DNA of 64,000 nt, from positions 186,001 through 250,000 of the forward strand of contig NZ_JAEHFX010000006.1 in the NCBI RefSeq assembly GCF_016623615.1, written 5' to 3'. A program made the translations under genes and the position numbers. Below are positions 5,828-22,725 of this stretch, piece after piece. Numbering within the stretch: position 1 is the stretch's first letter; each line of letters opens with the position of its first letter. Source of the DNA: Adhaeribacter terrigena (GTDB lineage: Bacteria > Bacteroidota > Bacteroidia > Cytophagales > Hymenobacteraceae). The notes under the pieces were generated by a model, which did no database searches, was not told the origin of the DNA, and saw only the letters and a list, made by a program, of their open reading frames with translations.

Positions 5828-5843
5828 AGGATCAAAAACAAAA

Positions 5844-5871: not shown

Positions 5872-5875
5872 CAAG

Positions 5876-5949: not shown

Positions 5950-6046
5950 GGGGTAAAAAAAAATTACGAATTATAAATCAGGAATTAAGAACGTTCTTGC
6001 AGAACAGAAACCATAATTCGTAATTCTAATTCGTAATTTAAATAAG

Positions 6047-6120
6047 TCGGGGTGGCAGGATTCGAACCTACGACCTCCACATCCCAAATGTGGCGCGATA
6101 CCGGGCTACGCTACACCCCG
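6047..6120 (-). tRNA. tRNA-Pro (UGG), copy 2
   Basis: Identical in sequence to 3447-3520, anticodon TGG. Preceded on the minus strand by a near-ideal Bacteroidota promoter at 6170-6199. Confidence 0.95.
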
Positions 6121-6169
6121 AACTTTCACTCCTGAATTTCTGCTTTTGGGCTTTCATTCAATCGTGGTG

Positions 6170-8086: not shown

Positions 8087-8094
8087 TACCTTTG
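8087..8094 (+). promoter_or_regulatory. -7 box upstream of batB
   Basis: TACCTTTG about 22 bp before the batB ATG at 8116. This places the transcription start beyond the in-frame ATG at 8092, which decides for 8116 as the start codon. No clear TTG element upstream. Confidence 0.55.
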
Positions 8095-8115
8095 GTCTCT
8101 TCCAATTTTCAACGA

Positions 8116-9084
8116 ATGACCTGGAGCCAGCCCTTTTCTTTACTGGAGCTTATTTTCGGCATAATTTTCATCCTGCTTTACGCCGCTTTCCTGATCCGGA
8201 TGAAAAAGCTGGCAAATACCCTGCACCAGAAACCGCACCTTGTCTGGCTGAAAATGCTGCTACGCATTACCTATTTTACGCTGCTGCTCATTGCGCTGCT
8301 GGGGCCTTCTTTTGGGGCAGCTACCAAAGAAATAAAAACCACCGGTAAAGATATTCTGGTTGCCGTAGATCTTTCGCAATCTATGAACGCCACCGATGTG
8401 CAGCCTTCGCGCCTGGAAAAAGTAAAATTCGAGCTTCCAAAATTGCTGCAGGAATTCAATTCAGACCGCATCGGGCTGCTCATTTTTTCTTCCGAAGCCT
8501 TTGTTCAAAGTCCGCTTACCTTCGATCAGAATGCCCTGAAGCTTTACACTGAAACGCTGAACACGAACCTGGTGCCGCACGCCGGAACCGAACTGGCCGC
8601 TCCGCTGGAAATGGCGCTTCAAAAATTTAAGGAAGAAAAAACGCCGCAATCGCAGCAAACGGCCAAAATCCTGGTGCTGATCTCCGATGGCGAAGATTTC
8701 GGCGAGAACCTGAAAAAACCACTGCAGGAGCTGGAAAAAGCTGGTGTTAAGGTTTTTTCGCTGGGTGTGGGCTCAGCCGATGGCGGCAATATTCCGGAAG
8801 GAAATGGCTTTAAACTGGATAACGAAGGCAATAAAGTTGTTACCAAACTGAATATAGAAGCACTGCAGGAAATTGCCTCGAAAACGAACGGCGAATACTT
8901 CGAGATAAACCAACGGGCCAGCGAAATAAACAAACTGATCAGTGCAATAAACAACGTGAAAGGCAATGTGCGACAGAGCAAAACCATAGACGTGAAGGCC
9001 AATAAATATTTTTACCCTTTGCTGCTGGCTTTGCTGCTCATGCTTTTCGATGCTACCATTCGTTTTAATACCTTTAAGATATGA
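8116..9084 (+). CDS. batB: BatB: VWA-domain membrane protein of the aerotolerance (Bat) operon
   Basis: 322 aa. Two N-terminal helices (LLELIFGIIFILLYAAFLI and LLRITYFTLLLIALLG), then a von Willebrand A domain with MIDAS motif AVDLSQSMNA (DxSxS) and GTELAAPLEMAL, LISDGEDFGE, and one C-terminal helix (YFYPLLLALLLMLFDATI). This is the arrangement of BatA/BatB proteins. BatB is chosen because the next bat gene in order is batC. The gene ends ATA TGA; that TGA overlapped the ATG of batC (ATGA) before the 13.6-kb element inserted there. Batch function is thought to be an inner-membrane complex helping cell-envelope integrity or stress tolerance (known only loosely). Confidence 0.9.
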   Translation: MTWSQPFSLLELIFGIIFILLYAAFLIRMKKLANTLHQKPHLVWLKMLLRITYFTLLLIALLGPSFGAATKEIKTTGKDILVAVDLSQSMNATDVQPSRLEKVKFELPKLLQEFNSDRIGLLIFSSEAFVQSPLTFDQNALKLYTETLNTNLVPHAGTELAAPLEMALQKFKEEKTPQSQQTAKILVLISDGEDFGENLKKPLQELEKAGVKVFSLGVGSADGGNIPEGNGFKLDNEGNKVVTKLNIEALQEIASKTNGEYFEINQRASEINKLISAINNVKGNVRQSKTIDVKANKYFYPLLLALLLMLFDATIRFNTFKI

Positions 9085-9085
9085 A
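9076..9085 (+). repeat. attL core
   Basis: AAGATATGAA, exact match to 22716-22725. It includes the batB stop codon (TGA at 9082-9084). Confidence 0.8.
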
Positions 9086-9122
9086 GATACGGAATCAAAA
9101 CATATAAATAACAAACATACAC

Positions 9123-9158
9123 AAAAGCCGCTTTAACACTCATTTTAGCGGCTTTTTT
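9123..9158 (+). terminator. Intrinsic terminator just inside the element's left end
   Basis: AAAAGCCGCT, 14-nt loop, AGCGGCTTTTTT. It lies 38 bp after the batB stop and would end transcripts coming from the bat operon before they reach the integrase or batC. Confidence 0.8.
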
Positions 9159-9234
9159 ATCGCCTTGTTTGTACTTACTTTGTTTTGTTATTAGTTTATT
9201 TTGGTTAGATTTGTTCCTCAAAGTGTTCCCCAAA

Positions 9235-10365
9235 ATGAAAAACATCAGAATAACGCTCCGGACAAAACCGATAAAAAACAATAAGGAAAGCATTCGTTTG
9301 GATTGCGCCCCGCCATTGGTGAACCCGGCAACCGGAAAGAAAACCCGATGGATCTATACTGGCCTGTTCCTTTATGCAAAACCCAAAAACCAGCTGGAAC
9401 GGGAACACAACAAAGAAACCAAAGCATTGGCCGAAAGCATCCGCGCTCAGCGCCTTCTTGAGGTTCAGGCCGGCCAGTATGGCTTTATCGAAGAAAAGGC
9501 CGTTGAGGTCAATTTAATTGAGTATTACACGGCCCTGGCAATTAAAAGGGATAATGGCGAATACGGCGTTTGGCAATGCTCCCTGAAACACATTAAGGAA
9601 TTCTTTGAGCCCAACAAAACCCTCAACGATCTGAAACTTTCTGAATGCGAAGCTTACCGGGAATACTTATTGCAAGCCGCCCAGAATAACAATTTCAAAA
9701 CAGAAAAAACCGGGATAAGCCAGAACACGGCCAGCGTTTATTTCAGCAAACTAAAAACCGCCCTGAAAGAAGCCTACAAAAAGGAAATCCTGAAAACAGA
9801 TTTGAACGGCCGGCTTCCAATCATTCGTGCCACAGAAACAGACCGCCAATTTTTAAGCATGGAAGAGCTGCAGGCATTGGTTAATGCCGATTGCAGGCGC
9901 CCGGAATTAAAGCAAGCCGCGCTTTTCTCTGCCCTTACTGGTATGCGGCATTCGGATATTAAAAAGCTTACCTGGTGCGAAGTACAGCACAGCAAGACCG
10001 GCGGGTACTTCCTGAGGTACAGGCAACAGAAGACCGGCGGCTCAGAATTATTACCTGTATCTGAACAGGCGGTTTCACTACTTGGTGAACGTGGTGAGGA
10101 CAGTAGCAAAGTTTTCGAACTTGACTACTCAAAGCACAATAATGACCTTTTGAAGGAATGGGTTAAAAACGCTGGGATTACGAAACACATTACTTTCCAC
10201 AGTTTCCGGCATACCTACGCCACACTGCAAATCAGTTTGGGAACCGACCTTTTCACCCTTTCCAAAATGCTCGGGCACCGGGAATTAAAAACAACGCAGA
10301 TCTACGCGAAGGTAATGGATAAGGCCAAACAGGAAGCGGCCAACAAAATAAAGTTAAACTTTTAA
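9235..10365 (+). CDS. int: Tyrosine recombinase (phage integrase family)
   Basis: 376 aa from the ATG at 9235; an upstream in-frame ATG at 9169 would add an unlikely hydrophobic leader. N-terminal Arm-DNA-binding region (MKNIRITLRTKPI, ESIRLDCAPP), a SAM-like core-binding domain (about 110-200), then the catalytic domain with TGMRHSDIKKLTW (Arg), the HSFRHTYAT box (HxxR), LGHRELKTTQ (His) and the tyrosine in IYAKVMDKA. All catalytic residues are present, so it looks active. Bacteroidota satellites, ICEs and prophages use this subfamily. It lies next to attL as expected and should act on the AAGATATGAA core. Confidence 0.95.
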   Translation: MKNIRITLRTKPIKNNKESIRLDCAPPLVNPATGKKTRWIYTGLFLYAKPKNQLEREHNKETKALAESIRAQRLLEVQAGQYGFIEEKAVEVNLIEYYTALAIKRDNGEYGVWQCSLKHIKEFFEPNKTLNDLKLSECEAYREYLLQAAQNNNFKTEKTGISQNTASVYFSKLKTALKEAYKKEILKTDLNGRLPIIRATETDRQFLSMEELQALVNADCRRPELKQAALFSALTGMRHSDIKKLTWCEVQHSKTGGYFLRYRQQKTGGSELLPVSEQAVSLLGERGEDSSKVFELDYSKHNNDLLKEWVKNAGITKHITFHSFRHTYATLQISLGTDLFTLSKMLGHRELKTTQIYAKVMDKAKQEAANKIKLNF

Positions 10366-10377
10366 CCAGGGAAGAAT

Positions 10378-11715
10378 ATGGAAACATTGACGAGAAGAGG
10401 CAGAAAAGTAAAAACTATTGCAGATTTAAAAAAACCAAAGGCATATCCTTTACAAAATTTTGAAACGCTAAAAACTTTTATAGGGTTTAATGAAATTCTC
10501 ATTGATCTTGACAAACTAAACCTATATTCAGAAGATTCTGAAAGGTTAGAATACTGTAATTCACTTTTCTGGTATATTGGTCTTTTGAATAATAACTGGC
10601 AAAAAGTCCCGGATATTCTATACATAGTTATCAATGATATTGAAGAAAAGAACATTTCAGAAAAATACGGCAACGTATTCTTGACTCACTTTTTAAAACT
10701 CATTAAAGGCTATGAATTGCATCCATGGGAAAGAATACCAGCACCAAATGCAAGTGGGTTTTATAATGATTGCTTTTATCAATTTCTTTATCGTTTCTAT
10801 AACGAAATACTATCAGGAACAAAGCGCAAAATCTATATTTTTAATACCGGACAGTATGCATTGGAGCATTTCTTTATAAATGGTGATCATAAACTTAGGA
10901 GTGAATTTTTTATTGAATGTTACTATTATTTCAAAAGAAGATATTTAGAAAAATACAACCCTGTAGAATTTTTAGGATTAGTTAATGAATACATTTCTTA
11001 TGCTTTTGAAATTGGCGTAGGAAACCCTATACGATTTTTAGAAGCGATAACGAAACATCGTAATGACGCCAATGAAATTGAAAAAGAAATCGAATGTAAT
11101 GCAGTATTATATTGGGTTCTATTAGGTATAAAATACAGGCTTGGCCCCAACCCCTTCATTTCATATTTTTCTGAACCATGGCAAAAAGAACCAATATACA
11201 ATCAATCAAGCGAAAATGAATTGGACCTGCTATATAGGTTTTTGAATGGTGAAGCAAAAATTCTTAATTGTTCACCAGACTTAGATCCGAACTCCCCACA
11301 ACTTGAAAGAACCCCTGAAGTTGAATTTTATATAAAAAATAAAGAAGTTGAAACGAAAGAAGTTGACAAAGGTAGTGATCTACAATGTTCGACGATCCCC
11401 AACGGAATTAAAGCTTCAAGGGCAGCTCATGCACTAGCTTATTATTACAAACAGGTATGCAAACTTGTCCCACACTCTGAAATGAATGAAGATGGTAAGG
11501 TTGCTGCATTAGAGAAGTTAGGAAGTTCGCATGGTTACGAACCTAAAGGATTTGTAAACATCTATTATGATGTTACTAAAAAGGATCAGCGAGCACAGCA
11601 TAATAGATCAAGAAGCATAAAACAAGCAATTGTGCTTTTAGCTGAATTTCCTGAAGCTCGAGAAAAGGCTATGAAAGAATTGAAGGAATATGAGCCAGCT
11701 TATGAAGCCGCTTAA
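10378..11715 (+). CDS. Unknown accessory protein of the element
   Basis: 445 aa, starting 12 bp after the integrase stop. I do not recognise a family. It is soluble, rich in aromatic residues (many Tyr/Phe), mostly alpha-helical by eye, with a basic N-terminus (METLTRRGRKVKT), an acidic mid-section and a basic C-terminal helix region (GSSHGYEPKGF, then KKDQRAQHNRSRSIKQAI) that could bind nucleic acid. Its codon use is clearly more AT-rich than that of the integrase before it and the replication genes after it, suggesting separate acquisition. The slot between integrase and excisionase often holds cargo or regulatory genes in mobile elements, so defence or helper-interference roles are possible but unproven. 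Confidence 0.75.
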   Translation: METLTRRGRKVKTIADLKKPKAYPLQNFETLKTFIGFNEILIDLDKLNLYSEDSERLEYCNSLFWYIGLLNNNWQKVPDILYIVINDIEEKNISEKYGNVFLTHFLKLIKGYELHPWERIPAPNASGFYNDCFYQFLYRFYNEILSGTKRKIYIFNTGQYALEHFFINGDHKLRSEFFIECYYYFKRRYLEKYNPVEFLGLVNEYISYAFEIGVGNPIRFLEAITKHRNDANEIEKEIECNAVLYWVLLGIKYRLGPNPFISYFSEPWQKEPIYNQSSENELDLLYRFLNGEAKILNCSPDLDPNSPQLERTPEVEFYIKNKEVETKEVDKGSDLQCSTIPNGIKASRAAHALAYYYKQVCKLVPHSEMNEDGKVAALEKLGSSHGYEPKGFVNIYYDVTKKDQRAQHNRSRSIKQAIVLLAEFPEAREKAMKELKEYEPAYEAA

Positions 11716-11828
11716 TCAAAAAACATATAGAAAATCAAAGTTTTAACCAGTTGTAAAAGTGGTTGTAACCAGTAGTTAATCGTTGTTGCCCACATCTTTG
11801 GATAAGAAAACAAAACAAGTCCAAAGAT

Positions 11829-12170
11829 ATGGTAATACTACAATTAACAGGCGAACAATTAACGGGCATTATTGAAAATGCCGTTCGCACCGCTTTAACC
11901 GGACAAGTCCAACAGCCTGCCCCTGATACTGATGAAATGCTCACAGTAGATCAGGCGGCGGGCTTTCTTTCTTTAGGCACTGCTACCATTTATAGTATGG
12001 TAAGCCGGAAAGAAATTCCATACATGAAGCCCAACGGTAAACGGCTTTATTTCTCAAAGCAGGAATTAACAGACTGGCTTAAAAGCGGTCGGAAAAAGAC
12101 CAACGCCGAAATAGCTACGGATGCCGGCAATTATCTCAGAAAAGGCCCTAAACCTAAAAGAGCGAGATAA
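11829..12170 (+). CDS. Helix-turn-helix DNA-binding protein, excisionase/AlpA type
   Basis: 113 aa. Residues 38-84 (MLTVDQAAGFLSLGTATIYSM, quoted as LTVDQAAGFLSLG and TATIYSMVSRKEIPYMK, then KRLYFSKQELTDWLKSG) form an HTH_17/excisionase winged-helix domain. The C-terminus is basic (RKGPKPKRAR). The stop codon overlaps the start of the next gene by one base (TAATG), so it is coupled to the DUF3987 gene. Likely roles: directionality factor for the integrase or activator of the replication genes; the sequence does not tell which. Confidence 0.85.
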   Translation: MVILQLTGEQLTGIIENAVRTALTGQVQQPAPDTDEMLTVDQAAGFLSLGTATIYSMVSRKEIPYMKPNGKRLYFSKQELTDWLKSGRKKTNAEIATDAGNYLRKGPKPKRAR

Positions 12171-13699
12171 TGAGCGAACCTTCTACAGTAACCGCCCATA
12201 ACCCCGCTCCTTCCGGAAACCAACTAAATCAAAACACAAAATCTGAAGTAAATAAAGATACGGAATTTTCTGGGAAAGAACCAATTAGCGAAACTTCGCT
12301 TTTTAATGCAGTGGATCTACTGGCAAAGCAAGCCAGTACACTGAAGTTTGAAGCACCTACACGCTCAAATAGTGAACTGTCCCAGTCCCGGGACTGGGAC
12401 AAGGTAACAAATAAATTTCCGGATTCTGTTTACCAAAACCTACCAGCCTTATTAAAACAGCCGTGTTTAATGCTGGATGCCAAAGAGCGTGAAGTTTACG
12501 CTGTTGCCGCCTTAGCCGTTGGTAGTGGTTGCCTTCCAAACATTTTGGGACACTATGGCGGCAACGTCTTCGGGGCAAACCTTTACTTGTATGTATTAGG
12601 CAATTACGGCGAAGGGAAAGCAGGCGTAATGCACGCGCGCAAACTAGGCGAAGCAATACACCTGGAAAAGCTGGAATACTCTAAGGAGCTTGAAAAGGAC
12701 TATAAAAGGGAAATGGCGCAATACAAAAAAGCGTTCAAACTTTTTGAAGCCGGCAAAGCTGAAATGCCAGACGAGCCCACCCCGCCGGAACACCGCAAAT
12801 TCTACCTACCTGCAAATAGCAGCAAAACAGCGGTTAAGCAATTATTGAAAGAAAACAGCGGCCGGGGCGTAATATTCGAAACGGAAGGCGATACCCTGGC
12901 AGACGTTTTCAAACAGGACTACGGCAATTTTTCCGACGATCTTCGGAAAGCCTGGGGACATGAACCACTAAGCTACTACCGGCGCACCAATAACGAAGAC
13001 GTAGATATTTCTTTCCCATGCGTTTCGGTTGTTCTTTCAAGCACGTTCGACCAGCTTTTAAGGCTTATTCCAAATATTGAAAACGGCTTATTCAGTCGAT
13101 TCATGTATTATGAACTGGAAAGCAGCCCAGAATTCAAAAATGTATTCGACAAAAAGAAAGTAGGCTACGGTAAATACTTTTCAGAATTAGGCTTGCAGTA
13201 CCAGAACATTTACAACGAACTGGCAAAGCAGGAATACCCGATCTACTTTGAATTACAACCCCACCAGGAAGCTCAATTTGTAAAAGTTTTTCAAGATCAG
13301 AAAAGCGAGATCCTGGAGTTTGTTGGTTCTGCTTTAGGTGGCACCATTAACCGGTTGGGCCTTATCTGCTTTCGAATTGCAATGCAGCTGGCAGCACTCA
13401 GGGCCTTTGACGATGGCGAATTACCCAATCCTTTAATCTGCTCTGATCAGGATTTCGAGAACGCGATAAGAATAACCGAATGCCTGAAAAAACACGCTCT
13501 TTCGGTTTTCTATAAACTCCCAAAGCCCCGGGTAATTAATCCGGATGCAGAAGAGGATAAGGACGTGGCCAAAGTTGAGAATAAAAAGAAGTGCCTGGAG
13601 CTTCATTCGCAGGGCCTTAGCGTTCGGGAAATTTCAGAAGCAGTCTTTGGTACTGAAAAGAAAAAATCTACTGTCCACCGGTGGATAAATGGAAACTAA
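12170..13699 (+). CDS. DUF3987 domain protein (replication-associated)
   Basis: 509 aa. Residues 60-450 match the DUF3987 layout found beside primases and helicases in mobile elements, including PALLKQPCLMLDAKEREVYAVAA, quoted here as LDAKEREVYAVAALAVGSG, then NLYLYVLGNYGEGKAGVMHA in the place of a P loop and DISFPCVSVVLSSTFDQLLRL. The P-loop-like stretch ends GKA instead of GKT/S, so nucleotide binding may be lost. The C-terminal 35 residues are a homeodomain-like HTH (SQGLSVREISEAVFG, STVHRWINGN). A perfect 24-bp palindrome lies inside the coding region at 12378-12401. Role: probably initiation of the element's replication together with the next gene. Confidence 0.85.
   Translation: MSEPSTVTAHNPAPSGNQLNQNTKSEVNKDTEFSGKEPISETSLFNAVDLLAKQASTLKFEAPTRSNSELSQSRDWDKVTNKFPDSVYQNLPALLKQPCLMLDAKEREVYAVAALAVGSGCLPNILGHYGGNVFGANLYLYVLGNYGEGKAGVMHARKLGEAIHLEKLEYSKELEKDYKREMAQYKKAFKLFEAGKAEMPDEPTPPEHRKFYLPANSSKTAVKQLLKENSGRGVIFETEGDTLADVFKQDYGNFSDDLRKAWGHEPLSYYRRTNNEDVDISFPCVSVVLSSTFDQLLRLIPNIENGLFSRFMYYELESSPEFKNVFDKKKVGYGKYFSELGLQYQNIYNELAKQEYPIYFELQPHQEAQFVKVFQDQKSEILEFVGSALGGTINRLGLICFRIAMQLAALRAFDDGELPNPLICSDQDFENAIRITECLKKHALSVFYKLPKPRVINPDAEEDKDVAKVENKKKCLELHSQGLSVREISEAVFGTEKKKSTVHRWINGN
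12378..12401. promoter_or_regulatory. Perfect 24-bp palindrome inside the DUF3987 gene
   Basis: Each arm is TGTCCCAGTCCC (and its complement), with no loop. Its left 13 bases, TGTCCCAGTCCCG, recur at 13711-13723 upstream of the next gene. Candidate binding site for the element's replication or regulatory protein. Confidence 0.7.
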
Positions 13700-13709
13700 A
13701 ACTGCCCCC

Positions 13710-13735
13710 CTGTCCCAGTCCCGAAAATGGGACAG
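13710..13735. promoter_or_regulatory. Hairpin carrying the same 13-mer as the palindrome
   Basis: CTGTCCCA (13710-13717) faces TGGGACAG (13728-13735) around a 10-base centre; contains TGTCCCAGTCCCG again. It sits 11 bp after the DUF3987 stop and 30 bp before the next start. Confidence 0.6.
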
Positions 13736-13765
13736 GTAGTTTTTCACCTCAAAAGCATAGCGTTT

Positions 13766-15085
13766 ATGGCATACCGATACACTTTAGATAAAGGCAGCAA
13801 GAAATTTATTTGTCCCAGATGTGGGGAAAAGGAATTCGTAAAAACGATCGATACTGAAACAGGGGAATACTTACCTGACGATGTAGGCAAGTGCGACCGC
13901 GCCAATGGTTGCGCTCACGAATATCACTATTCAGATTACTTTAAAGAAAATCCTGATCAGCGCTCGGAAGGATTGTTTACTTCAAAACCAACGCCACCAA
14001 AGAAACCCGCATACATACCAACCGATTATGTAGAAAGCCGGCGGAAGGGTTACGATGCAAACACATTTGTAAAATACCTGAAAGGTTTATTTGGCTCTGA
14101 AATAACCAGGCAGTTAATTGACCTTTACGATATTGGAACCTTTAACGAACGCTGGCCAGGATCTGCGATCTTTTGGGTAAAGGATGTCGAAGGGCGTACC
14201 CGCTCCGGACAAGTTAAGCACTTTGAAGAAAACGGACATACCGGTAAGTATTTGGATAAAGCAGGCAAACCCAAAAGCAAAACGGATTGGGTACATAGCC
14301 AACTTATATTTAAATACAGCCGGAAACATTGCGAAGAAAAGCAGCCGGCCTGGCTTACAAAGTACCAGGAAAACCCGGAAGGTTGGCCGTGCTTATTTGG
14401 TGAACAGCTATTAAGCCATTTCCCTGAAAAGCCCGTGGCGCTCGTAGAAGCTCCTAAAACCGCAATAATTGCCAGCGTGTATTTCCCCCAGTTCGTGTGG
14501 CTTGCAATTGGTGCTAAAGGGTACTTTACCACAAACAGGCCGGATCGTTTGGCCGCATTAAAAGGTCGCACTGTTGTACTGTTCCCGGACCTGAAAGCAT
14601 TTGATGACTGGAACCAAAAGGCGGTGGCGCTTTCCCATATTGCCGCTTTTATAACGTCTGACTTTTTAGAGCAAAACGCTACCGATGCCGAACGGGAAAA
14701 AGGATTGGACCTGGCCGATTATTTAACCCGGTTTCCGCTTTCTGCATTCCAGAAAAACGGTATGGTTTCGGAGCCTAAATCTCAAAGCCCGCCCGTAAAA
14801 TACGGCGAAATACGGGAAAGCCAGAAACCACAGCCCGTGGTTCAAACGGAAGCAGTCATAAACGGTCGCGTTTCAAACGCTACCCTTCAGCTGCAGCCCG
14901 AACCGGTAAGCATAGAGTATTACCATTACTCCTACGCAGACCTTTGCAAAGAGGTCGGAGAGTTGGAAGCCCTGGCCAAAGTGAATATGTACCTAGAACT
15001 TTCCCGAACCTACTCACACAGTCCCGGCTTTGTGATCCATACCTGCAACCTGCTTACCTCCTACCGGCAACGATGCGCCGCTTAA
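13766..15085 (+). CDS. Zinc-finger/Toprim primase-like protein (DUF6371 type)
   Basis: 439 aa from the ATG at 13766 (MAYRYTLDKGSKKF); an upstream in-frame ATG at 13727 lies inside a hairpin. N-terminal zinc-ribbon-like motif CPRCGEKEFVKT and GKCDRANGCAHEYHY, then a Toprim-like region around residues 210-290 (VALVEAPKTAIIASVYFPQ with the Glu, and TVVLFPDLKAFDDW with the Asp). This is how DUF6371/primase-like proteins of mobile elements are built. Role: priming of the element's DNA, probably with the DUF3987 protein. A copy of the host's interspersed repeat (13751-13766) abuts the start codon, the only copy inside the element. Confidence 0.8.
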   Translation: MAYRYTLDKGSKKFICPRCGEKEFVKTIDTETGEYLPDDVGKCDRANGCAHEYHYSDYFKENPDQRSEGLFTSKPTPPKKPAYIPTDYVESRRKGYDANTFVKYLKGLFGSEITRQLIDLYDIGTFNERWPGSAIFWVKDVEGRTRSGQVKHFEENGHTGKYLDKAGKPKSKTDWVHSQLIFKYSRKHCEEKQPAWLTKYQENPEGWPCLFGEQLLSHFPEKPVALVEAPKTAIIASVYFPQFVWLAIGAKGYFTTNRPDRLAALKGRTVVLFPDLKAFDDWNQKAVALSHIAAFITSDFLEQNATDAEREKGLDLADYLTRFPLSAFQKNGMVSEPKSQSPPVKYGEIRESQKPQPVVQTEAVINGRVSNATLQLQPEPVSIEYYHYSYADLCKEVGELEALAKVNMYLELSRTYSHSPGFVIHTCNLLTSYRQRCAA

Positions 15086-15228
15086 AAAATTTGCTTGACC
15101 TGATAGATACAATCTATTACTATGCTTTATTCATAGACCATTCACCAATCAGTGAAACGCTATCTAAAAGTTTAGAAACAGGACTTTTTCACCATTCAAT
15201 GGAAAACCCGGCAAAGCTTACTTTCTGA
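15073..15228 (+). CDS. Possible small protein overlapping the primase-like gene end
   Basis: 51 aa (MRRLKNLLDLIDTIYYYALF...) starting 13 bp before the previous stop, in another frame. The overlap is of the kind seen in coupled genes and the N-terminal half is an amphipathic or membrane-like helix. No family recognised; could be chance. Confidence 0.3.
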   Translation: MRRLKNLLDLIDTIYYYALFIDHSPISETLSKSLETGLFHHSMENPAKLTF

Positions 15229-15488
15229 CCTAGTAAGTATACCGCTTTGATATACAGTTATTTATAATTCAAAGGAACAATTAAGGCACAAATTAGGAAT
15301 TCTTTCTTCGGTTTTCACCCGGCAAATTTGCGGAGTGAAACCAGCTAAATGCAACTCTAAATTGAACTATAATTACCTGACAACTAGGCAGTTAAATATA
15401 TTGAATTAAAGCAATATTTTAGCATTAAAACCTTTCTATTTCCTTGCAATTTTCGTAAATTATAGCATAAACCAAATAATAAAACAAA
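15229..15488. other. Intergenic region before the tail module
   Basis: 260 bp without a gene. It contains an inverted repeat GGTTTTCAC/GTGAAACC near 15312-15343 and an AT-rich stretch before 15489. It probably carries the promoter for the tape-measure/terminase module, but no clear TAnnTTTG box was found. Confidence 0.4.
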
Positions 15489-16154
15489 ATGAAGAACACA
15501 ATCGAAATTCCTGCAGAACCAATTATTCTGGAACAGAAAACCGAACAGATTAAAGAAGCCCGCGAAAGAGCGGAAGCAACCGTGGAAGCGGTGAACGAGT
15601 TTCTGGAATCATTTGAAAAGTTAGGCTTTGGCGGCCTTGATGAAGATCAGATCTACCAGGTTCAAAGCAAAGGTTTAGATGCCTACGTTCGCGAACAGGT
15701 AGCAGGCACGGCCCCGGTCATGGTGGGCGGTTTAAAGCTCAGCATTGAGAAAGTGCAGCAAATGGTTGAACTTCCGGACCTGCGGGCACAGTACAAAGCC
15801 CTGGAAGAAATGCGGCGCTTTATGCCTTACTCTGCCCATGGTGCGAAGATCGAGAACGGCCGGGCGGTTGTAGATGAAGAAATGATGGAAGGCGTGGTAA
15901 AACGCGCTACCACTTACGCGAGCACCGAAGCGGAAAAGAAAGCCTGGCTTTTGCTTCAGCAGATCACGGAAAACATGGCAACGCTTTACAATGAATTCCG
16001 GGTGCAGCCTTTCGATAGCTACGCACCGGTAGTTCGCTTTAGCGTTTGGCATGGTAAACCACAATTCAAAATTTATCACAGTATGTTCTTGGACCAAGTA
16101 CGGCGCGGTGCGAATACGGCTAATCTTGAAAACAGAACTAAAGCCGTAGCATAA
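15489..16154 (+). CDS. Unknown protein upstream of the tape-measure-like gene
   Basis: 221 aa, charged, mostly helical. The first 60 residues form a coiled-coil-like helix ([20 protein letters not shown]). It ends in a strand-rich segment ([20 protein letters not shown]). No family recognised. The stop is 2 bp before the start of the tape-measure-like gene, so the two are co-transcribed and may act together, for example as tail assembly chaperone or tail component (inference from position only). Confidence 0.75.
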
Positions 16155-16156
16155 TC

Positions 16157-18307
16157 ATGGGCGGGCAAGAAAATTTCCTGCTTTATGGTGTAGAGTTCAA
16201 AATGGGTGAAGCTTACCAGAACGTTGGTAAGCTCACCAAAGCCATAGCAGAAAGCAAAAAGGAAGAAAAGGAGCTGAACCAGATCGTTAAAGAAGGCAAC
16301 GAACTTTCAGACGAACAGGCCAAACGTTTAGCCGAAGTGCAGGCCAAAACCCGGCAGCTGACCGAAGAAAAACGGCGGGAAGAAAAAGCCATTGATGAAG
16401 TTACAAAAGCGGTAATAGCAGAATCCGGTTCTTACGAACAGCTTTACCGGTTGCAGAAAGTAGCCGAAAACCAGCTGAAGACCATGGCCGGCCAATTGAA
16501 GCGTAATGAAGATGGCACCTATGAGCTGACCGCTGAATATATCCGGCAATCTAAAGTAGTAAAGCAGGCCAAAGATGCGCTGCTGGAATACAACAAAGGC
16601 GTTTCTAATGGAACCCTGAATGTTGGCCGGTATAAAGAAGCAGTCCTGGAGGCGGCCAAAGGATCCGGTAAGTTCGGTGATAGCATTAACACCATGAACG
16701 ATGCTTTCAAAATGAACCCGGTCGGCATGCTGGTAACCGCTTTAACCCTACTGCCGAAACTCTTTGCAAGCTCAGGCGATAGCGCCGGCATGTTTACCGG
16801 AATTATGGAACAGGGAACCGCGGTTCTGAACGTGTTCCTGGACCGGGCAAAGTTTATAGGGGAAGCGGTAAGCAAATTACTCAAAGGTGATTTTTCCGGG
16901 GCAGCGGAAGCGGCGAAGAAAAGCTATAAAGGTATCGGCGACGAGCTGGAACGGGAAGTAAAGCTGACCGGCGATCTATCCAAAGCAAAGTACCAGCTGG
17001 AACGGGATGAGGCTAAAAACATAGCTACTTCCAAAAAGATGCTCAACCAGATCGAGCGCCTGAAAAATGAGCGGGATAACGAGTTCAATTCTATTGAGCA
17101 GCGTAACGAAGCCAACGAAAAAGCCTTTGCCCTGGAAACTCAACGGCAGAACACGCTTGAAGCCATAGCCCGCCGGCGCGTTGAAATCATCCAGAAGGAA
17201 GTTGAGATGCGGGGCGGGGAAGCCAAAGCCAGCACCGAACAGCTCCGGGAATTAGGCGAAGCGGAAGAGGCCCTGTTTGATATTCTGGAAGACAGCGCCG
17301 GGAAGCAAAATGAATTCATTACCAACCGCTTCCAGCTCAACAAAGAAGCCAAAGAGCAGGAAAAGCAGGTACGGGCAGAACGGGAAAAAACATTTAAGGA
17401 CCAGCAGGAAAAACTCAAAGAAGAGGTAAAAGGCTACCAGGAACTACTCGACAGCCTGGCAAAGATCCGGAAGCAACAGCTTGACGAAGAAAAGGCCTTG
17501 CGTGAGGAATTCGATAAAACCCGTGAAAAACAGTTTGAGAATTCAGAGAAAGCCCGGAAGAAACGGGAGCAGGATGCCATCGATGAAATTCAACTGGCAA
17601 AAGATGTAGCGAAGAAAAAGCAGGACTACAAAGAAGCGGAGTACCTGGCCATCGTAACGCTTGCTCAGGCATCTTCGGATATTGTTTCTGCCTTATCTGC
17701 CCAGGGTGCGGAAATGTCAGAGTTCCAAAAGCTTATAGCGTTATTCCAGATCGGACTAAAACAGGCGGAAGCTATTGGGAACCTGACCGCTTCGGCTACA
17801 GTGGTAGCGGGTAATATCGCGGCAGCCAGTGGCCCGGCCGGTATTGTTGCCGGCCCTGTTGCTTATGCGGCATACTACGGAACACAGATAGCGTCCATTC
17901 TTACTGGCTTTGCACAGGCGCGGCAATTGCTTTCTGCCGATGCTCCAAAGGCTGACTTTTCAAAAGCTGAATTTTATGGTGGTGGCTATACCGGTGATGG
18001 CGGCAAGTACGAGCCGGCCGGGATTGTCCATAAGGGGGAAATTGTTTGGAGCCAGGAGGATGTAAGAAAAGCCGGCGGGGTGGCTGCTGCCGAACGATTG
18101 CGCCTTAGCCTTCCGGGTTACGCTGATGGCGGTTTAGTGGCCAGGTCGGTATCGGCACCAGTTGTACAACAGCAGCAGATGACCCAACAGATAGCCTATC
18201 AGGTACAGGTTGCATTTAAGAACCTTCCGCCAATTTATACCCGGATAACCGATATAAATGCAGCACAGAAAAACGGTATTCAAACCCAACTTAGGTCTGA
18301 TATATAA
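16157..18307 (+). CDS. Phage tail tape-measure-like protein
   Basis: 716 aa. Residues 15-190 are coiled-coil ([20 protein letters not shown] onward), 195-250 a hydrophobic stretch ([20 protein letters not shown]), 270-500 a second long coiled-coil rich in Lys/Glu, 505-610 hydrophobic and Ala/Gly-rich ([20 protein letters not shown], then [20 protein letters not shown]). The C-terminal part [20 protein letters not shown] is the motif found near the end of many tape-measure proteins. In phages this protein sets tail length and guides DNA entry. No other tail or head gene is present, so here it must serve with, or interfere with, a helper phage's tail (inference). A coiled-coil structural protein of other purpose is the alternative. 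Confidence 0.75.
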
Positions 18308-18309
18308 CG

Positions 18310-18438
18310 ATGGCAAAAAAATGCAAAAAGCCTTATGAAAGAAAGGCCTTGCTGAAAAAGCAAAAGAAACATCGAGAGCTTACCTATGAAATCCTAAGAG
18401 CAAAACGGGAACATAAAAAGAAAGTGGAAACTAACTAA
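18310..18438 (+). CDS. Very basic 42-aa peptide
   Basis: ATG at 18310, two bases after the tape-measure stop: MAKKCKKPYERKALLKKQKK and on to KKKVETN. Over a third of the residues are Lys or Arg, with one predicted helix, so nucleic-acid binding is possible. It is followed after 8 bp by the DUF5681 gene. Spacing suggests a real gene of the tail/terminase module; no family recognised. Confidence 0.5.
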   Translation: MAKKCKKPYERKALLKKQKKHRELTYEILRAKREHKKKVETN

Positions 18439-18446
18439 TCAGGAAC

Positions 18447-18776
18447 ATGAGCACACAATTTGAAAAGGGAAACCCAGGCAAACCGAAAGGAGCGAAAAAC
18501 AAAGTTACTACCGAGATCCGGGAAAAGTTCGATCAGTTATTACAATCTGTTACTGCTGAGCAAATGGCAGCGGATCTTTTAGCCCTTAAACCGGCCGAAC
18601 GGTTAAACCTGATAATGGGATTAGCAGAATACATTACGCCAAAGCTAGCCCGTACGCAAATGCAATTTGACAATCAGGCAATACTAAACCCGGTTTTTAA
18701 AATTAATGTAATTCACAGCAAAGATGGATTTACGGCTCCACCGCTGGCCAATTCAGAAAAAGATGTTGTACTGTAA
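18447..18776 (+). CDS. DUF5681-like phage-associated protein
   Basis: 109 aa. The N-terminus FEKGNPGKPKGAKNKVTTEI is the DUF5681 signature (KGxxGNPKGRPKG-like basic loop) seen in phages next to terminase genes. The rest is helical. Probably DNA-binding; role in packaging suspected from position, 11 bp before the small terminase-like gene. Some related proteins are listed as terminase small-subunit-like themselves. Confidence 0.75.
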   Translation: MSTQFEKGNPGKPKGAKNKVTTEIREKFDQLLQSVTAEQMAADLLALKPAERLNLIMGLAEYITPKLARTQMQFDNQAILNPVFKINVIHSKDGFTAPPLANSEKDVVL

Positions 18777-18787
18777 ATTTGTGAAGT

Positions 18788-19228
18788 ATGGCCGCAAACC
18801 AACACCATAACTTGAAAGGGCGGCCTCGCCGTTTTGCCACGCCTGAACAACTTTGGCAGGCAGCAAGTGCGTACTTCGAATGGTGCGAAGCTCACCCGCT
18901 TTTCAAAGTGCAATGGGTTGGCGGTATAGCAAAAAGGGTAAACATTGAAATACCGCGGCCCTTCACTTTATCTGGCCTGAGGCTTCATTTAAGATGTGGG
19001 GTAAACTATCTTAGTCAGTTAAAGAAACGCCTTACTGACAGCCCACAGGACCGGGAACTTGAGGACATCATAAACCGGATTGAATTGGTAATTTATGAAC
19101 AGAAGTTTGTAGGGGCTGCCGTTGGAATTTACAATGTTTCAATAATTGCTCGTGATCTAGGGCTTATGAACCGGAAAACAATAAAAAACATTGAGCCGCA
19201 AAAGCAGGCTGTTTATCATTTAGCGTGA
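18788..19228 (+). CDS. terS: Small terminase subunit, DNA-packaging gp3-like
   Basis: 146 aa. RPRRFATPEQLWQAASAYFE (N-terminal helix-turn-helix region), EWCEAHPLFKVQW, then RPFTLSGLRLHLRCGVNYLS and the C-terminal FVGAAVGIYNVSIIARDLGL are the sequence of landmarks of the GP3_package/terminase-small family. The small subunit picks the DNA to be packaged and hands it to a large terminase. No large subunit lies nearby, so it would have to recruit a helper phage's enzyme, the hallmark strategy of PICI-type satellites (established for SaPIs). Last gene of the plus-strand operon; a terminator follows at 19298. Confidence 0.85.
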   Translation: MAANQHHNLKGRPRRFATPEQLWQAASAYFEWCEAHPLFKVQWVGGIAKRVNIEIPRPFTLSGLRLHLRCGVNYLSQLKKRLTDSPQDRELEDIINRIELVIYEQKFVGAAVGIYNVSIIARDLGLMNRKTIKNIEPQKQAVYHLA

Positions 19229-19297
19229 GTCTTACGCGCGCGTATAGAGAAAGGAGGTAATATCTAATTTTAATTATTTGGTTGTTTTGGTTTAGCA

Positions 19298-19327
19298 AGC
19301 CCACGGCGTTATTCCGTGGGCTTTTTA
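19298..19327. terminator. Bidirectional intrinsic terminator
   Basis: AGCCCACGG-CGTTATT-CCGTGGGCTTTTT, lying between the convergent terS (plus) and the 19309-19629 gene (minus), whose stop codon it overlaps. Confidence 0.85.
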
Positions 19328-19629
19328 CTTAACCAATCTTCATTCCCGGTCAGCTTCAGCAATGGGTTTTTAGAAGTCTTCGCGGCGCTGGCTATCATGT
19401 CTAAACCTCGATCACTAGCCAAGAATTCATGTTGATCTTTGAACCCGTACATGTGCGCTAAATTCCCGGCATCGGTATAAATTTCGCCCGTTTCTTTATT
19501 GCGGTAAAAGGCCCAGCGTACACCGTTATCATCTACAGATTGTAGTACTTCAAACGGATCTTCGGCGGCGGGCTTTGGATCTGGTATTAACTTTAAAAGC
19601 GCTGCGAGTTTTGCAATTATCTCTTTCAT
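19309..19629 (-). CDS. Unknown element protein
   Basis: 106 aa from the ATG at 19629 (MKEIIAKLAALLKLIPDPKP); the longer frame to 19683 has no better start. An N-terminal hydrophobic/amphipathic helix, then a compact domain with DDNGVRWAFYRNKETGEIYT, and GNLAHMYGFKDQHEFLASDR. The last stretch resembles the KilA-N/BRO-type or Bro-N helix pattern only loosely; I do not assign it. Convergent with terS. Confidence 0.65.
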   Translation of the reverse strand: MKEIIAKLAALLKLIPDPKPAAEDPFEVLQSVDDNGVRWAFYRNKETGEIYTDAGNLAHMYGFKDQHEFLASDRGLDMIASAAKTSKNPLLKLTGNEDWLSKKPTE

Positions 19630-19683
19630 ATTCAGCAAGTTGGTTTCCCTGTAATTTACAAAAATCGCCGCTTTAAACCTCAA

Positions 19684-19993
19684 AATTCAGGTGAAATTAC
19701 ATAGCCTTTTTGCTTTTTATATTGTGTGTGCTACACATATTTGCGGCATTACATTCACTCTCAGAAAGTGTCTTTCTTTGCAAGGCATTGAAAAACAGTT
19801 GTTTAATTTCTGAATATGGGAACAGGGAACAACCACCGAACAAAAAAGTAATTTTAGCAGATTATGAGGGGGTATGCGCAATTTTACGGATACCCCTTTT
19901 AAGTAACCGAAGCAGTCTAAATTATGCACGCATCCAACTGAGAAATAAAAGGGCAAACTTAAACCAGGTTAAATTTTTCAAGTATAAAGCCAC
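19684..19993. other. No gene recognised, 310 bp
   Basis: Open frames here are short and not convincing. It separates the minus-strand 19309 gene from the small membrane protein at 19994 and probably carries both promoters. Confidence 0.4.
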
Positions 19994-20134
19994 ATGAAAA
20001 AAGCCCTGAAAGAAGCTGCAACATCTTTGTTTTTGCTGGTTTATCCTGGCGAAGAACCTACCACCCGGCAGCTGGTCTGGTTTTATGCGGCCTTGCTCTT
20101 TGGCCTGGCCATGGTCGCGCTCTGGAATTATTAA
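19994..20134 (+). CDS. Small single-pass membrane protein, 46 aa
   Basis: MKKALKEAATSLFLLVYPGE then PTTRQLVWFYAALLFGLAMV and ALWNY. A charged N-terminus and one clear membrane helix near the C-terminus. Not recognised. Size and shape are compatible with a holin-like or other small membrane protein, but one helix is not enough to say so. Confidence 0.5.
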   Translation: MKKALKEAATSLFLLVYPGEEPTTRQLVWFYAALLFGLAMVALWNY

Positions 20135-20176
20135 GGCCGCACGCATTAGTGCTGAGAACCTTATAAAACCTGAGCT

Positions 20177-20374
20177 TCAAAGATCCTGTTTCCTAACCGC
20201 CGTTTCTCTCCAGATTATTGCCTTTTCAAATTCACCTTTTACCCTAACCGTGGGGAAGGTAATATTTTTAAAAACCTTTGTTGCTTCATCTTCATTCAGG
20301 TTATCTACCCTAACCAGGGCCTTTTCACTTCCTACCCGCCGAATTTCTACCCGGTGATCATTTCTAATATCCAT
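20177..20374 (-). CDS. Unknown small protein
   Basis: 65 aa, beginning MDIRNDHRVEIRRVGSEKAL, with alternating strand-like segments (EKALVRVDNL, NITFPTVRVKGEFEKAIIW). It starts 17 bp from the TTCGAA box cluster (20391-20442) and is divergent from the 20531 gene, so the boxes probably control it. Function unknown. Confidence 0.6.
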   Translation of the reverse strand: MDIRNDHRVEIRRVGSEKALVRVDNLNEDEATKVFKNITFPTVRVKGEFEKAIIWRETAVRKQDL

Positions 20375-20390
20375 AAAGCAAAATTAAGAA

Positions 20391-20442
20391 TTCGAACTAT
20401 TCGAACCACTCGAACAGGGTTCGAAAGTTCGAATAGTTCGAG
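20391..20442. promoter_or_regulatory. Cluster of six TTCGAA-type boxes between divergent genes
   Basis: TCGAA/TCGAG units begin at 20392, 20401, 20410, 20421, 20429 and 20438, that is every 8-11 bp, about one helical turn. The outer parts form an inverted repeat: TTCGAACTATTCGAAC faces GTTCGAATAGTTCGA. Candidate operator for the two divergent genes or iteron-like replication origin. Confidence 0.7.
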
Positions 20443-20530
20443 GGAGAATCTGTCAAAAGCAATAAGTATTGTCCAATCCACTTACATCAATTTTAGTTGC
20501 AAATTTGTTGAAACTAAAAAACAATAATTT

Positions 20531-20788
20531 ATGAACTTAAAAAACACAAGCCGGCAAGAACAATTAGCCGCATTTTTTGAATTACTTATTCCTATCGAAG
20601 CGAAAAGTAAATCCTGGTTTACCCAACATGGCGAAAACTTTACAATTAAGGATTTTCTAATTGAAGCTACACCGGCGGATCCAAATAGTTTTGCATTTAG
20701 AATTGCAGATAATGTCCCAGGTTATATAAGAAAGGAAATTGAAGAAGCCCGGGAAATAATATTTCAGAGATACTACGTTCAGAAATAA
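20531..20788 (+). CDS. Unknown small protein
   Basis: 85 aa, acidic, helical (SRQEQLAAFFELLIPIEAKS, FTIKDFLIEATPADPNS, VPGYIRKEIEEAREIIFQRY). Not recognised. It is divergent from the 20177 gene across the TTCGAA cluster and has its own terminator at 20794. Confidence 0.65.
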   Translation: MNLKNTSRQEQLAAFFELLIPIEAKSKSWFTQHGENFTIKDFLIEATPADPNSFAFRIADNVPGYIRKEIEEAREIIFQRYYVQK

Positions 20789-20793
20789 AAAAA

Positions 20794-20816
20794 GCCGGGG
20801 CAAAACCCCGGCCTTA
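20794..20816. terminator. Intrinsic terminator after the 20531 gene
   Basis: GCCGGGGCAAAACCCCGGC hairpin with A-rich left flank; lies between the plus-strand 20531 gene and the convergent minus-strand 20850 gene and may serve both, although the right flank has few T. Confidence 0.7.
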
Positions 20817-20849
20817 GTTCCTTAAACATTTATGAACATGCACTATATC

Positions 20850-21245
20850 TTACCCGAATAGCGCCAGCAAAACTTCATTTACCATTCTATTTTCCACTTC
20901 GGTTAATTTATTCTGTCTGTGTTGTATGGTCCATTCGTGCAGCACATTCCCTATAAAACTTACCTGGCTTTCTGAAAAGGCGTACTCCATATACTCTTCA
21001 CCTTTCAGCGTTTCAGATCCAGCAACCGGCCGGTTTGTGCCAGTAACTTTATCCCGTATTCCTTCCACCTCGCCGCGTTCTTCAGGCGTTGCTACTTCGG
21101 ACTGAGTATCCCAAAAAAGATCACACAAACCCGTAACCACTTCCACTTCCTGAGCGGAAAAGCATACCGTAATAGCTTTGGTTTCTTCGGACTGATCCAC
21201 TTCTTCCGGCTGTTCCGGCTGGTTTTCATTTCTAATTATTTCCAT
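20850..21245 (-). CDS. Unknown acidic protein
   Basis: 131 aa with a strongly acidic first third (ENQPEQPEEVDQSEETKAI), then a helical domain (SAQEVEVVTGLCDLFWDTQS, SQVSFIGNVLHEWTIQHRQN). No family recognised. Acidic small proteins of phages and satellites often mimic DNA or bind host/helper proteins, but nothing in the sequence proves this. It lies downstream of the 21361 gene on the same strand, 115 bp apart. Confidence 0.65.
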   Translation of the reverse strand: MEIIRNENQPEQPEEVDQSEETKAITVCFSAQEVEVVTGLCDLFWDTQSEVATPEERGEVEGIRDKVTGTNRPVAGSETLKGEEYMEYAFSESQVSFIGNVLHEWTIQHRQNKLTEVENRMVNEVLLALFG

Positions 21246-21360
21246 GGTTCCTTCTTTTTAATCTTTTGATTCCTTTTTTCTGCAGTTTTAACAGGTGATT
21301 TAATAGTTGGATTTGTTCTTTAATCTACAAAAAAACCACTCAACTTTTGGCAGTTAAATG

Positions 21361-21951
21361 CTACAATTTGTAAGTATTTAAGCGATTTTCTAACCAGCGC
21401 CAGTCGCTTTGCAACCTGTTTTCTGCAGCCTGTTTCGCCATTTTAGAACATCTTCGCCAGGAGTCCATTACTTCGCCACCAGTGGATTCCATAAAGGCAT
21501 TCCGAAGCTCCCGAAGTAGCCATAAATTCTCCTTGAAACTATCGGTAAAATCGTCGGGGTTGGAGGTTTTTATTAAATCATACATGACTGTATCGAGCAT
21601 AGCCACTATTCCGGCGGTGTTACAGTTTTCAATACACTCAAAGATCGGCCGCACGTCAACCGTTTCATGTAACACAGAGAATTTAAAAGGTGCGTGCGTG
21701 TCATCTGCCGGCACGTTGGAAAGTATTTTAAGGTTTATTTCCCTAATGTTACCTTCGAAACCGATGAAGCCACTATAAGGGCTGCGGCATACCAAAAGTG
21801 CGTTCAGATAGTCTAGATGTTCTTCATCCGAAATGATGCCGGCCAGCTTTGCATGATCAGCTGCTACAGCAAACGAAATTAATTCAGGATCAGTAATCGA
21901 TGGTAATGTAGGGCGCGCGGTAACCGCTGCCTGGTTGGAATTGTGTTTCAT
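21361..21951 (-). CDS. Unknown element protein
   Basis: 196 aa, soluble, mixed helix and strand. No recognised domain. Notable stretches are LVCRSPYSGFIGFEGNIREI, and a C-terminal charged helix with ENRLQSDWRWLENRLN. It is divergent from the ribbon-helix-helix gene at 22129; three GTGTAACTTT-type repeats lie between, so that regulator probably controls both. Confidence 0.65.
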   Translation of the reverse strand: MKHNSNQAAVTARPTLPSITDPELISFAVAADHAKLAGIISDEEHLDYLNALLVCRSPYSGFIGFEGNIREINLKILSNVPADDTHAPFKFSVLHETVDVRPIFECIENCNTAGIVAMLDTVMYDLIKTSNPDDFTDSFKENLWLLRELRNAFMESTGGEVMDSWRRCSKMAKQAAENRLQSDWRWLENRLNTYKL

Positions 21952-21992
21952 GACTGATGCGATTTTGGAAGTTTAAATTTTATGCGTTTTTG

Positions 21993-22090
21993 GTGTAACT
22001 TTGGAGTAATATATATGCAAAAATAGTGTAAGTTTCATGCAATACAAATTAATTTTACATTTTTTTTATTCCTAAATGGTGTAACTTTTA
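21993..22090. promoter_or_regulatory. Three GTGTAACTTT direct repeats in a divergent promoter region
   Basis: GTGTAACTTT at 21993-22002, GTGTAAGTTT at 22026-22035 and GTGTAACTTT at 22081-22090. The third is followed at once by a TACCTTTA -7-like box for the gene at 22129. Candidate operator for the ribbon-helix-helix protein. Confidence 0.55.
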
Positions 22091-22128
22091 TACCTTTACC
22101 TTGTTGAATAAAAAACCTTATATAAACT

Positions 22129-22293
22129 ATGGCAGAAGCAGAAAACCCAGGAGCTGAAAAAGTAAAACTGAATATCCAGATGGAAAAAGAGTTGCTTGAA
22201 AAAGGCAAGGAACACGCCCGAAAGAAGGGGATCAGTTTTGCCGGTTTGATTAGGCAGTTATTAATTGAGGACATGGAAAAAGTAAAAGCTTAA
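22129..22293 (+). CDS. Ribbon-helix-helix (CopG-like) regulator
   Basis: 54 aa: a short acidic lead, then the strand KVKLNIQMEKELLEKGKEHA and the helices RKKGISFAGLIRQLLIEDM, the usual pattern of a ribbon-helix-helix DNA-binding domain (beta strand that enters the major groove, then two helices). Such proteins bind as dimers to short direct repeats, and three candidate repeats lie upstream (21993-22090). It is 7 bp before the next gene, so the two form an operon. Likely a repressor of element genes (inference). Confidence 0.7.
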   Translation: MAEAENPGAEKVKLNIQMEKELLEKGKEHARKKGISFAGLIRQLLIEDMEKVKA

Positions 22294-22300
22294 AAAAACC

Positions 22301-22609
22301 ATGGTCGAAGTTTTAACCAAAGCAGAAACACTGGCCGCGATCAAGAAGGCTACGGAACCCTTGGCTAAAGAGCTGGCCATCCTCCGGGAAGTGGTAGAGC
22401 AGAACGCCGAACTGGTAGATAGTGTAGAAGCCAGCCGCTTGACCGGTTTTTCGGATAACCGGACGCTTAAAAAGCATTTTACCGAGATCAAGGTAGGCAC
22501 ATCCATCCGGTTCAGCAAGGCCGAGATCATCCGCTGGAGGCATGAGCAGAGCCTGCATAAAGCCCCGGAATTACGCATACAGACAATGGAATCATCCGGA
22601 AAGAGATAA
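22301..22609 (+). CDS. HTH DNA-binding protein with coiled-coil N-terminus
   Basis: 102 aa. Residues 1-40 are a coiled-coil (TKAETLAAIKKATEPLAKEL), residues 41-85 an excisionase/MerR-like winged helix (VDSVEASRLTGFSDNRTLKK, then VGTSIRFSKAEIIRWRHEQ). As the last gene before attR and the second such HTH protein of the element it could be the excision factor, with the 11829 protein acting on replication or transcription, or the reverse. Confidence 0.75.
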   Translation: MVEVLTKAETLAAIKKATEPLAKELAILREVVEQNAELVDSVEASRLTGFSDNRTLKKHFTEIKVGTSIRFSKAEIIRWRHEQSLHKAPELRIQTMESSGKR

Positions 22610-22715
22610 TAAACTTACAAGTGGCGGGCAATACTTGACGGTTAAATGTTCCTTTATTCCGACACACAATTACAACGCATTGATTCTCATCACACTTACA
22701 AACGGTAGTATTTTC

Positions 22716-22725
22716 AAGATATGAA
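22716..22725 (+). repeat. attR core
   Basis: AAGATATGAA, identical to 9076-9085; its ATG (22721-22723) is the batC start codon. Confidence 0.8.

Follow-up and report, generated by a model that had tools for sequence, protein, structure and literature searches.

Gene content and insertion site of the element

The 64,000-nucleotide stretch analyzed here (the window: positions 186,001 to 250,000 of contig NZ_JAEHFX010000006.1 of the bacteroidote Adhaeribacter terrigena) carries at 9076-22725 an insertion that an initial annotation had read as a phage satellite with defined ends. These ends proved to be exact. The 10-bp direct repeat AAGATATGAA at 9076-9085 and 22716-22725 borders the element, which splits batB (8092-9084) from batC (22721-23698) while preserving the stop codon of the former and the start codon of the latter. 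In a genome of the same genus (G001) the stop/start overlap of batB and batC is intact, i.e. the site is empty, and the flanks of the window, fused at the 10-bp core, align to this junction. The repeat on its own is a weak indication and the argument rests on the empty site in G001; the repeat, the uninterrupted junction and the aligned flanks together fix the ends and give an inserted length of 13,640 bp. An integrase with its own att site and an empty site in a relative are among the features by which phage-inducible chromosomal islands (PICIs) are recognized. The genes from the tyrosine integrase to the small terminase (TerS) form a run on one strand, encoding in order the integrase, orf2, and the HTH_17, DUF3987, Zn_ribbon_16+DUF6371, orf6, tail tape-measure (TMP), DUF5681-like and TerS proteins, and are followed by small genes, mostly on the opposite strand, along with genes for ribbon-helix-helix (RHH)- and helix-turn-helix (HTH)-like proteins:

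9076-9085, no strand: attL core AAGATATGAA, at the 3' end of batB
9238-10365, + strand: tyrosine integrase (Phage_integrase, SAM_5, Arm-DNA-bind_5); the open reading frame (ORF) opens at 9169
10378-11715, + strand: orf2, 445 aa, without family match; the slot is occupied by diverse proteins in relatives
11829-12170, + strand: HTH_17 protein (Pfam), excisionase/regulator-like
12170-13699, + strand: DUF3987 protein (Pfam E=1.5e-53), replication-type
12378-12401, no strand: perfect palindrome of 24 bp within the DUF3987 gene (0 expected in shuffles), candidate origin or operator
13711-13734, no strand: imperfect copy of the palindrome (3 mismatches), just after the DUF3987 gene, where the next gene begins
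13727-15085, + strand: Zn_ribbon_16 + DUF6371 protein (Pfam), serving as the family marker
15489-16154, + strand: orf6, 221 aa, immediately preceding the TMP gene, in the position of a tail chaperone
16157-18307, + strand: TMP, 716 aa (PHROG and prophage homology)
18447-18776, + strand: DUF5681-like protein, 109 aa, below the Pfam cut-off; small-terminase-like by recurrent position only
18788-19228, + strand: TerS of the P22 gp3 type (Pfam GP3_package, PHROG and PDB profile match)
19297-19323, + strand: terminator-like hairpin 3' of the integrase-to-TerS run; such hairpins are no commoner than in shuffles
19309-19629, - strand: small protein; G028 has a homologue downstream of its element
20177-20374, - strand: 65-aa protein, likewise with a G028 homologue downstream of the element there
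20850-21245, - strand: 131-aa protein without family match
21361-21951, - strand: 196-aa protein; a homologue is again present in G028, downstream of its element
22129-22293, + strand: RHH-like regulator
22301-22609, + strand: HTH-like protein
22716-22725, no strand: attR core AAGATATGAA, spanning the batC start codon

Pfam searches bear out the integrase, the HTH/excisionase-like protein and the DUF3987 protein of the initial annotation. A zinc-finger/Toprim protein had also been proposed: its zinc ribbon was recovered, but Toprim itself gave no match and the remaining domain is DUF6371; we take the protein to be primase/Toprim-like. The two regulators predicted near the right end fared unevenly, the RHH protein matching DUF6364 just above the cut-off and the second HTH protein only weakly. 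Capsid, portal, large terminase (TerL) and relaxase families have no match among the scanned element proteins (all except a few small overlapping ORFs), so that TerS occurs without TerL, as the initial annotation had stated and as in PICIs. A phage-induced repressor switch beside the integrase is a hallmark of PICIs; the ORF map displays no clear divergent repressor pair at this position, and the HTH_17 gene lies two genes in. The palindrome and its imperfect copy are the only two instances in the window and could constitute a replication origin or operator. For orf6 no phage homologue was found. AlphaFold models were too poor for use both for orf6 (pLDDT 46) and for the protein encoded by c34 of related elements (pLDDT 51). 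Outside the element, the window contains a 300-bp exact direct repeat (3228-3527 and 5828-6127, 2600 bp apart) with a tRNA-Arg/tRNA-Pro pair.

Identity of the small terminase and the tape-measure protein

TerS is recognized by Pfam (GP3_package, E=2e-20) and PHROG (phrog_606, E=3e-32), and a profile of four relatives matches P22 gp3 (PDB 3p9a) with E=5e-37. The TMP matches phrog_21845 (E=5e-17) and phrog_24 (E=1e-15), most strongly in its C-terminal part, and is homologous near its N-terminus to prophage tape measures; against the NCBIfam lambda tape-measure model it scores weakly, far below the cut-off. Single-sequence scans recovered no relative of either protein in viral contigs, nor of the TMP in genome contigs, and their relatives were found by profile or whole-genome searches.

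A family of related elements in Bacteroidota

Of the 390 genomes examined in the order, 82 contain the Zn_ribbon/DUF6371 marker gene. Besides the window, marker matches with E up to 1e-20 occupy 68 places, of which 60 were fetched and eight were not. Together with the window itself and a sister element, L007, in G028, these 60 make up the 62 loci that we mapped. The sister begins with integrase, HTH and replication genes, the DUF6371 protein and a different TMP of 1123 aa, 3' of which Terminase_2, DUF5681-like (just under the cut-off) and GP3 genes follow consecutively; no TerL was seen in it. Homologues of three downstream genes of the window lie further along from this sister. Beside it, L007 14082-18017 encodes a 1311-aa protein read as RHS-like, perhaps cargo.

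Across the mapped loci a backbone of integrase, variable orf2, HTH, primase-like gene and marker recurs, with the c1 integrase in 49/62 and the c2 HTH protein in 39/62, whereas the 3' part varies between small terminases, tape measures, the c34 gene and restriction-modification-like or other cargo. Loci combining integrase, HTH and marker are also found in named Flavobacteriales, Bacteroidales and Chitinophagales-type genomes and in IMG/VR. Thus, the recurrence in many relatives rules out one outcome that would have undermined the initial annotation, namely that no relatives share this gene order.

PHROG searches, run on 30 chosen proteins of relatives and 10 TerS candidates, detect a TMP in at least eight of the mapped loci (the window, L007, L026, L038, L047, L061, L079 and L082, in the last ~4 kb from the marker locus) and, in other collections, in L161 (Spirosoma endophyticum) and L211 and L248 (IMG/VR). 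The initial annotation had portrayed the TMP as standing without any other virion gene: capsid and portal genes are indeed lacking among the scanned proteins, but the protein is no isolated oddity, being a recurrent component of the family. A PHROG-confirmed TerS is present in at least 11/62 loci (the window, L007, L024, L028, L031, L045, L047, L048, L061, L077 and L078), rising to 20/62 with DUF5681-like genes included; L060, with a weak DUF5681 match upstream of the marker, is excluded from the TerS loci. Both counts are lower bounds, because only chosen proteins were scanned. TMP and confirmed TerS occur together in four mapped loci (the window, L007, L047 and L061) and, outside these, in L161. 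Variants with a large terminase exist (L024, L077 and L211). The IMG/VR contigs L211 and L215 (16.4 and 18.7 kb) have the element backbone and closely resemble each other in their TerS and TerL ORFs. What comes next differs: one contig has a TMP there, the other a protein with matches to tail and minor-head families.

The tape measures are diverse: those of L026, L038, L047 and L161 are related, those of L082 and L248 form a pair, and the others display only short, weak matches, while the TMP of L061 is 42-45% identical to that of the G118 prophage over ~100 residues. L047 additionally encodes a chaperone-like protein (phrog_183, E=3e-4), and a homologue of c34 adjoins the TMP gene in the G033 prophage. 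Other long ORFs were considered as tail proteins: L027 is instead helicase-like with a weaker head-closure match, L030 a methyltransferase and L131 transglycosylase-like, and those of L066, L033, L035 and L056 have no clear match as such. The L066 ORF (9123-16772) encodes a 2549-aa protein with a weak PHROG match right after the marker, in the slot held by the TMP in other elements.

A direct-repeat search in 16 relatives (minimum 11 bp, hence blind to the 10-bp core of the window) returned repeats exceeding all 30 shuffles in three, which likely represent their ends: a 50-bp repeat at tRNA-Val in L079 (13,493 bp, TMP inside), an 18-bp repeat at tRNA-Leu in L061 (15,345 bp) and a 16-bp repeat in L041 (12,652 bp). 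In seven loci (L023, L029, L041, L058, L063, L064 and L080) the left end follows a gene that we read as, and presume to be, mnmE, which suggests a favored integration site. L049 (G405) has batB/batC-like genes, and the marker gene occurs again ~2.7 kb upstream of them. Homologues of the small protein at 19309-19629 of the window recur in elements and one prophage (L008 8259-8492, L018, L024, L038 and L161); of these, the one in L008 matches Bro-N weakly and is possibly an antirepressor.

Prophages of a likely helper type

Relatives of the window TerS are rare: the single protein finds them in 5/200 genomes of the family and the profile in 8/390 of the order, the own genome being counted in both, and three further matches (G013, G218 and the second site of G502) are fragments that were not counted. 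At nine intact-TerS loci beyond the window and G028 (L009, L011 and L015-L021), TerS adjoins an ORF read as the large terminase, judged in L015-L021 by ORF size, position and reading and not by a family search. Two prophages of the same bacterial family, in G033 and G118, have a TerS 46% and 40% identical to that of the window, and their TMPs are 33-37% identical to the N-terminal part of the window TMP over 120-135 residues. As both carry a TerS and a TMP related to those of the element, this prophage type is the likely helper type. A TerL profile of this type detects its own seeds, G033 and G118, and also G237; it has no match in G000 or G001, and PF03237 has none in G000, results that we count in favor of the satellite. 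Among the hosts of TMP elements, G237 (L038) has a related TerL and a portal and G293 (L061) a portal, and these phages are possible resident helpers of L038 and L061.

Scatter of tail and terminase genes over the marker tree

A tree of 75 marker proteins was computed by a quick search with support from the SH-like approximate likelihood-ratio test (SH-aLRT) only, 23 of its 72 inner branches being well supported. The TMP label, borne by ten rows (L082 was labelled as having neither gene since its TMP lies ~4 kb off), requires eight changes, and the well-supported branches alone force eight. TMP presence is thus scattered over the tree, with mild clustering (L007 with L026, and L038 with L047). 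L045 and L047, both from G222, have closely related markers and TerS; L045 carries the c34 tail-region gene and L047 a TMP. Such a pattern would fit repeated recruitment of tail genes and not the decay of one prophage. The second outcome that might have overturned the initial annotation, relatives (in which genes beyond the chosen ones were mostly read, not scanned) that have capsid, portal and large terminase genes at this locus, was not seen. In some IMG/VR contigs, read as phages, TerS and an ORF of TerL size do accompany the marker gene; eight of nine such contigs group apart from the elements, and the ninth, L236, pairs with L211.

Functional interpretation and alternative explanations

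Taken together, the element is best explained as a phage satellite that depends on a helper and belongs to a new family in Bacteroidota, a reading to which we assign a probability of roughly 0.6. Its gene content, exact ends and empty site, along with the backbone order shared by many relatives, favor the satellite of a Bacteroidota phage that the initial annotation had advanced, and we hold with some confidence that it is a satellite of some kind. That its TMP is built into helper tails, by analogy with the PICI-like elements (PLEs) of Vibrio cholerae, we regard as an even bet. Both estimates were lowered slightly because TerS was detected in only half of the TMP loci. Satellites are defined, in one account, as elements that encode means favoring their own packaging in helper particles (PMC11389934). 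By gene content the element fits this definition: it has a TerS as a putative packaging means, but one with a short tail.

Under this proposal, the integrase and the HTH protein would insert and excise the element at the batB/batC junction, and the DUF3987 and zinc-ribbon/DUF6371 proteins would replicate it. Upon infection by a siphophage of the G033/G118 prophage type, the P22-gp3-like TerS would steer the large terminase and capsid of the helper to satellite DNA. The satellite TMP is predicted to be incorporated in helper tails, resulting in chimeric tails on satellite particles in which it would set the tail core and perhaps the tail length and DNA delivery. A rather speculative generalization, which we consider doubtful, is that satellites across the phylum hijack both delivery ends, with interchangeable TerS proteins choosing the DNA for the helper head and interchangeable tape-measure or adjacent tail genes replacing the core of its tail. 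If true, such satellites might set tail length, escape tail-directed defense or shift the range of recipient cells, and elements with two or three terminase-like genes might serve several helpers.

Several observations weigh against the satellite proposal. TerS models, seeded from genes 3' of the marker, find no TerS in four of the eight mapped TMP loci (L026, L038, L079 and L082), and 39/75 tree rows, L082 included, carry neither the TMP nor the TerS label, for which reason the backbone alone is no proof of satellite life. Shuffled TMP labels require 9.5 changes on average, and in 34 of 500 shuffles the number is no higher than observed. No resident helper was found in G000 or G001; the PF04860 portal family is also absent from G000, but the search is uninformative for this phage type because it misses both prophage-holding genomes, G033 and G118, too. 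The maximal 19-residue mean hydropathy of the window TMP is 1.42 versus 1.82-2.76 in 12 other TMPs, and it may not eject DNA because it lacks a strongly hydrophobic segment; the window TerS extends 21 residues past the conserved motif versus 38-40 in two helper-type phages. In P22 the TerS tail binds TerL, and its deletion abolishes DNA binding and TerL association (PMC9611059). Similarly short tails are nevertheless seen in two phage TerS proteins of the same family, those of L019 and L020 (the latter counted by eye).

The weakly hydrophobic TMP and the short TerS tail mean that these proteins might instead act as decoys, the element being a phage-interference island in which they poison the packaging rings and tails of the phage and protect the cell with little or no transfer. 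A cluster read as type I restriction-modification in 10/62 mapped loci would suit such a role, as would HsdM_N in four of 140 neighbor proteins scanned with Pfam (the batB-like gene of L049 having been dropped beforehand), and interference with tail assembly is a known defense strategy (PMC11364771). However, the replication genes, integrase and exact ends indicate a mobile element, all ten other element TMPs compared possess a strongly hydrophobic segment, and a PADLOC search with ten window proteins produced just one weak match (E=8e-4), which links orf6 with a candidate whose function is unknown; we consider this possibility unlikely. Decay of a prophage that lost its virion genes and retained TerS and TMP as relics, which we deem quite improbable, could account for the marker gene being shared by elements and the phage-read contigs with TerS and a TerL-sized ORF, for the TerL retained in L211 and L077, and for the pairing of L211 with a phage row on the tree. 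Against this, the element genes are open, TerS and TMP are joined in the four mapped loci and L161 with different TMPs and TerS families, the phage rows other than L236 form their own group, and L079 retains matching tRNA ends. The order of integrase, HTH, DUF3987 and primase-like genes resembles that described for Bacteroides mobilizable elements, a point in favor of an element mobilized by conjugation like the non-replicating Bacteroides units (NBUs), with the phage genes as cargo. Yet no relaxase or mobilization family was found among the scanned element proteins, and none figures in the top 25, by frequency, of the 84 Pfam families that the 140 scanned neighbors gave (the neighbor families considered being these and the first 25 of a further list of 129), making this reading highly improbable.

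Comparison with known satellites and related mobile elements

To our knowledge, satellites are well described in few groups only, mainly proteobacteria and Gram-positive cocci. PICIs, including the Staphylococcus aureus pathogenicity islands (SaPIs), are ~14 kb long and combine an integrase, a replication protein and a TerS without TerL with defense-type cargo. The present element resembles them in all these respects, the defense-type cargo being found in its relatives; it differs in adding a TMP and in having replication genes of a Bacteroidota type. Capsid-forming PICIs (cf-PICIs) bring capsid genes, unlike the element as judged from its scanned proteins, and the lack of a relaxase in the same set distinguishes it from mobilizable, NBU-like elements. 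The G033 and G118 prophages are akin to it in their related TerS and TMP, but carry a large terminase, many late genes and longer TMP ORFs (829 and 928 residues versus 716 in the window). Among the matches listed in the open-license PMC literature, judged by titles and the beginnings of abstracts, there is no description of Bacteroidota satellites, and related elements, as recognized by gene content, occur elsewhere in this phylum.

The closest functional parallel is offered by the PLEs, which encode their own TMP and a tail chaperone, in some cases a baseplate hub, and form chimeric tails; deletion of the PLE tmp gene cuts transduction by 96 to 99.9% (PMC12987554). This role of a tape measure encoded by a satellite was described in 2026, for a single Vibrio family, and the authors of that study state that no other satellites had been reported with a tape measure, while predicting tmp genes in PLE-like elements and in some cf-PICIs (PMC12987554, Extended Data Fig. 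10). The present element shares with PLEs a TMP of its own, as identified by homology, and some of its relatives have a chaperone-like gene (L047) or c34. It differs in belonging to another phylum and, as far as can be seen from the descriptions, to other gene families, with a TerS of the P22 type; moreover, PLE function was demonstrated experimentally, whereas that of the element is predicted. That a family from a different phylum has several kinds of TMP would point to takeover of the tail as a general satellite strategy, and the members of this family provide many natural replicates for testing why satellites need a tail ruler of their own.

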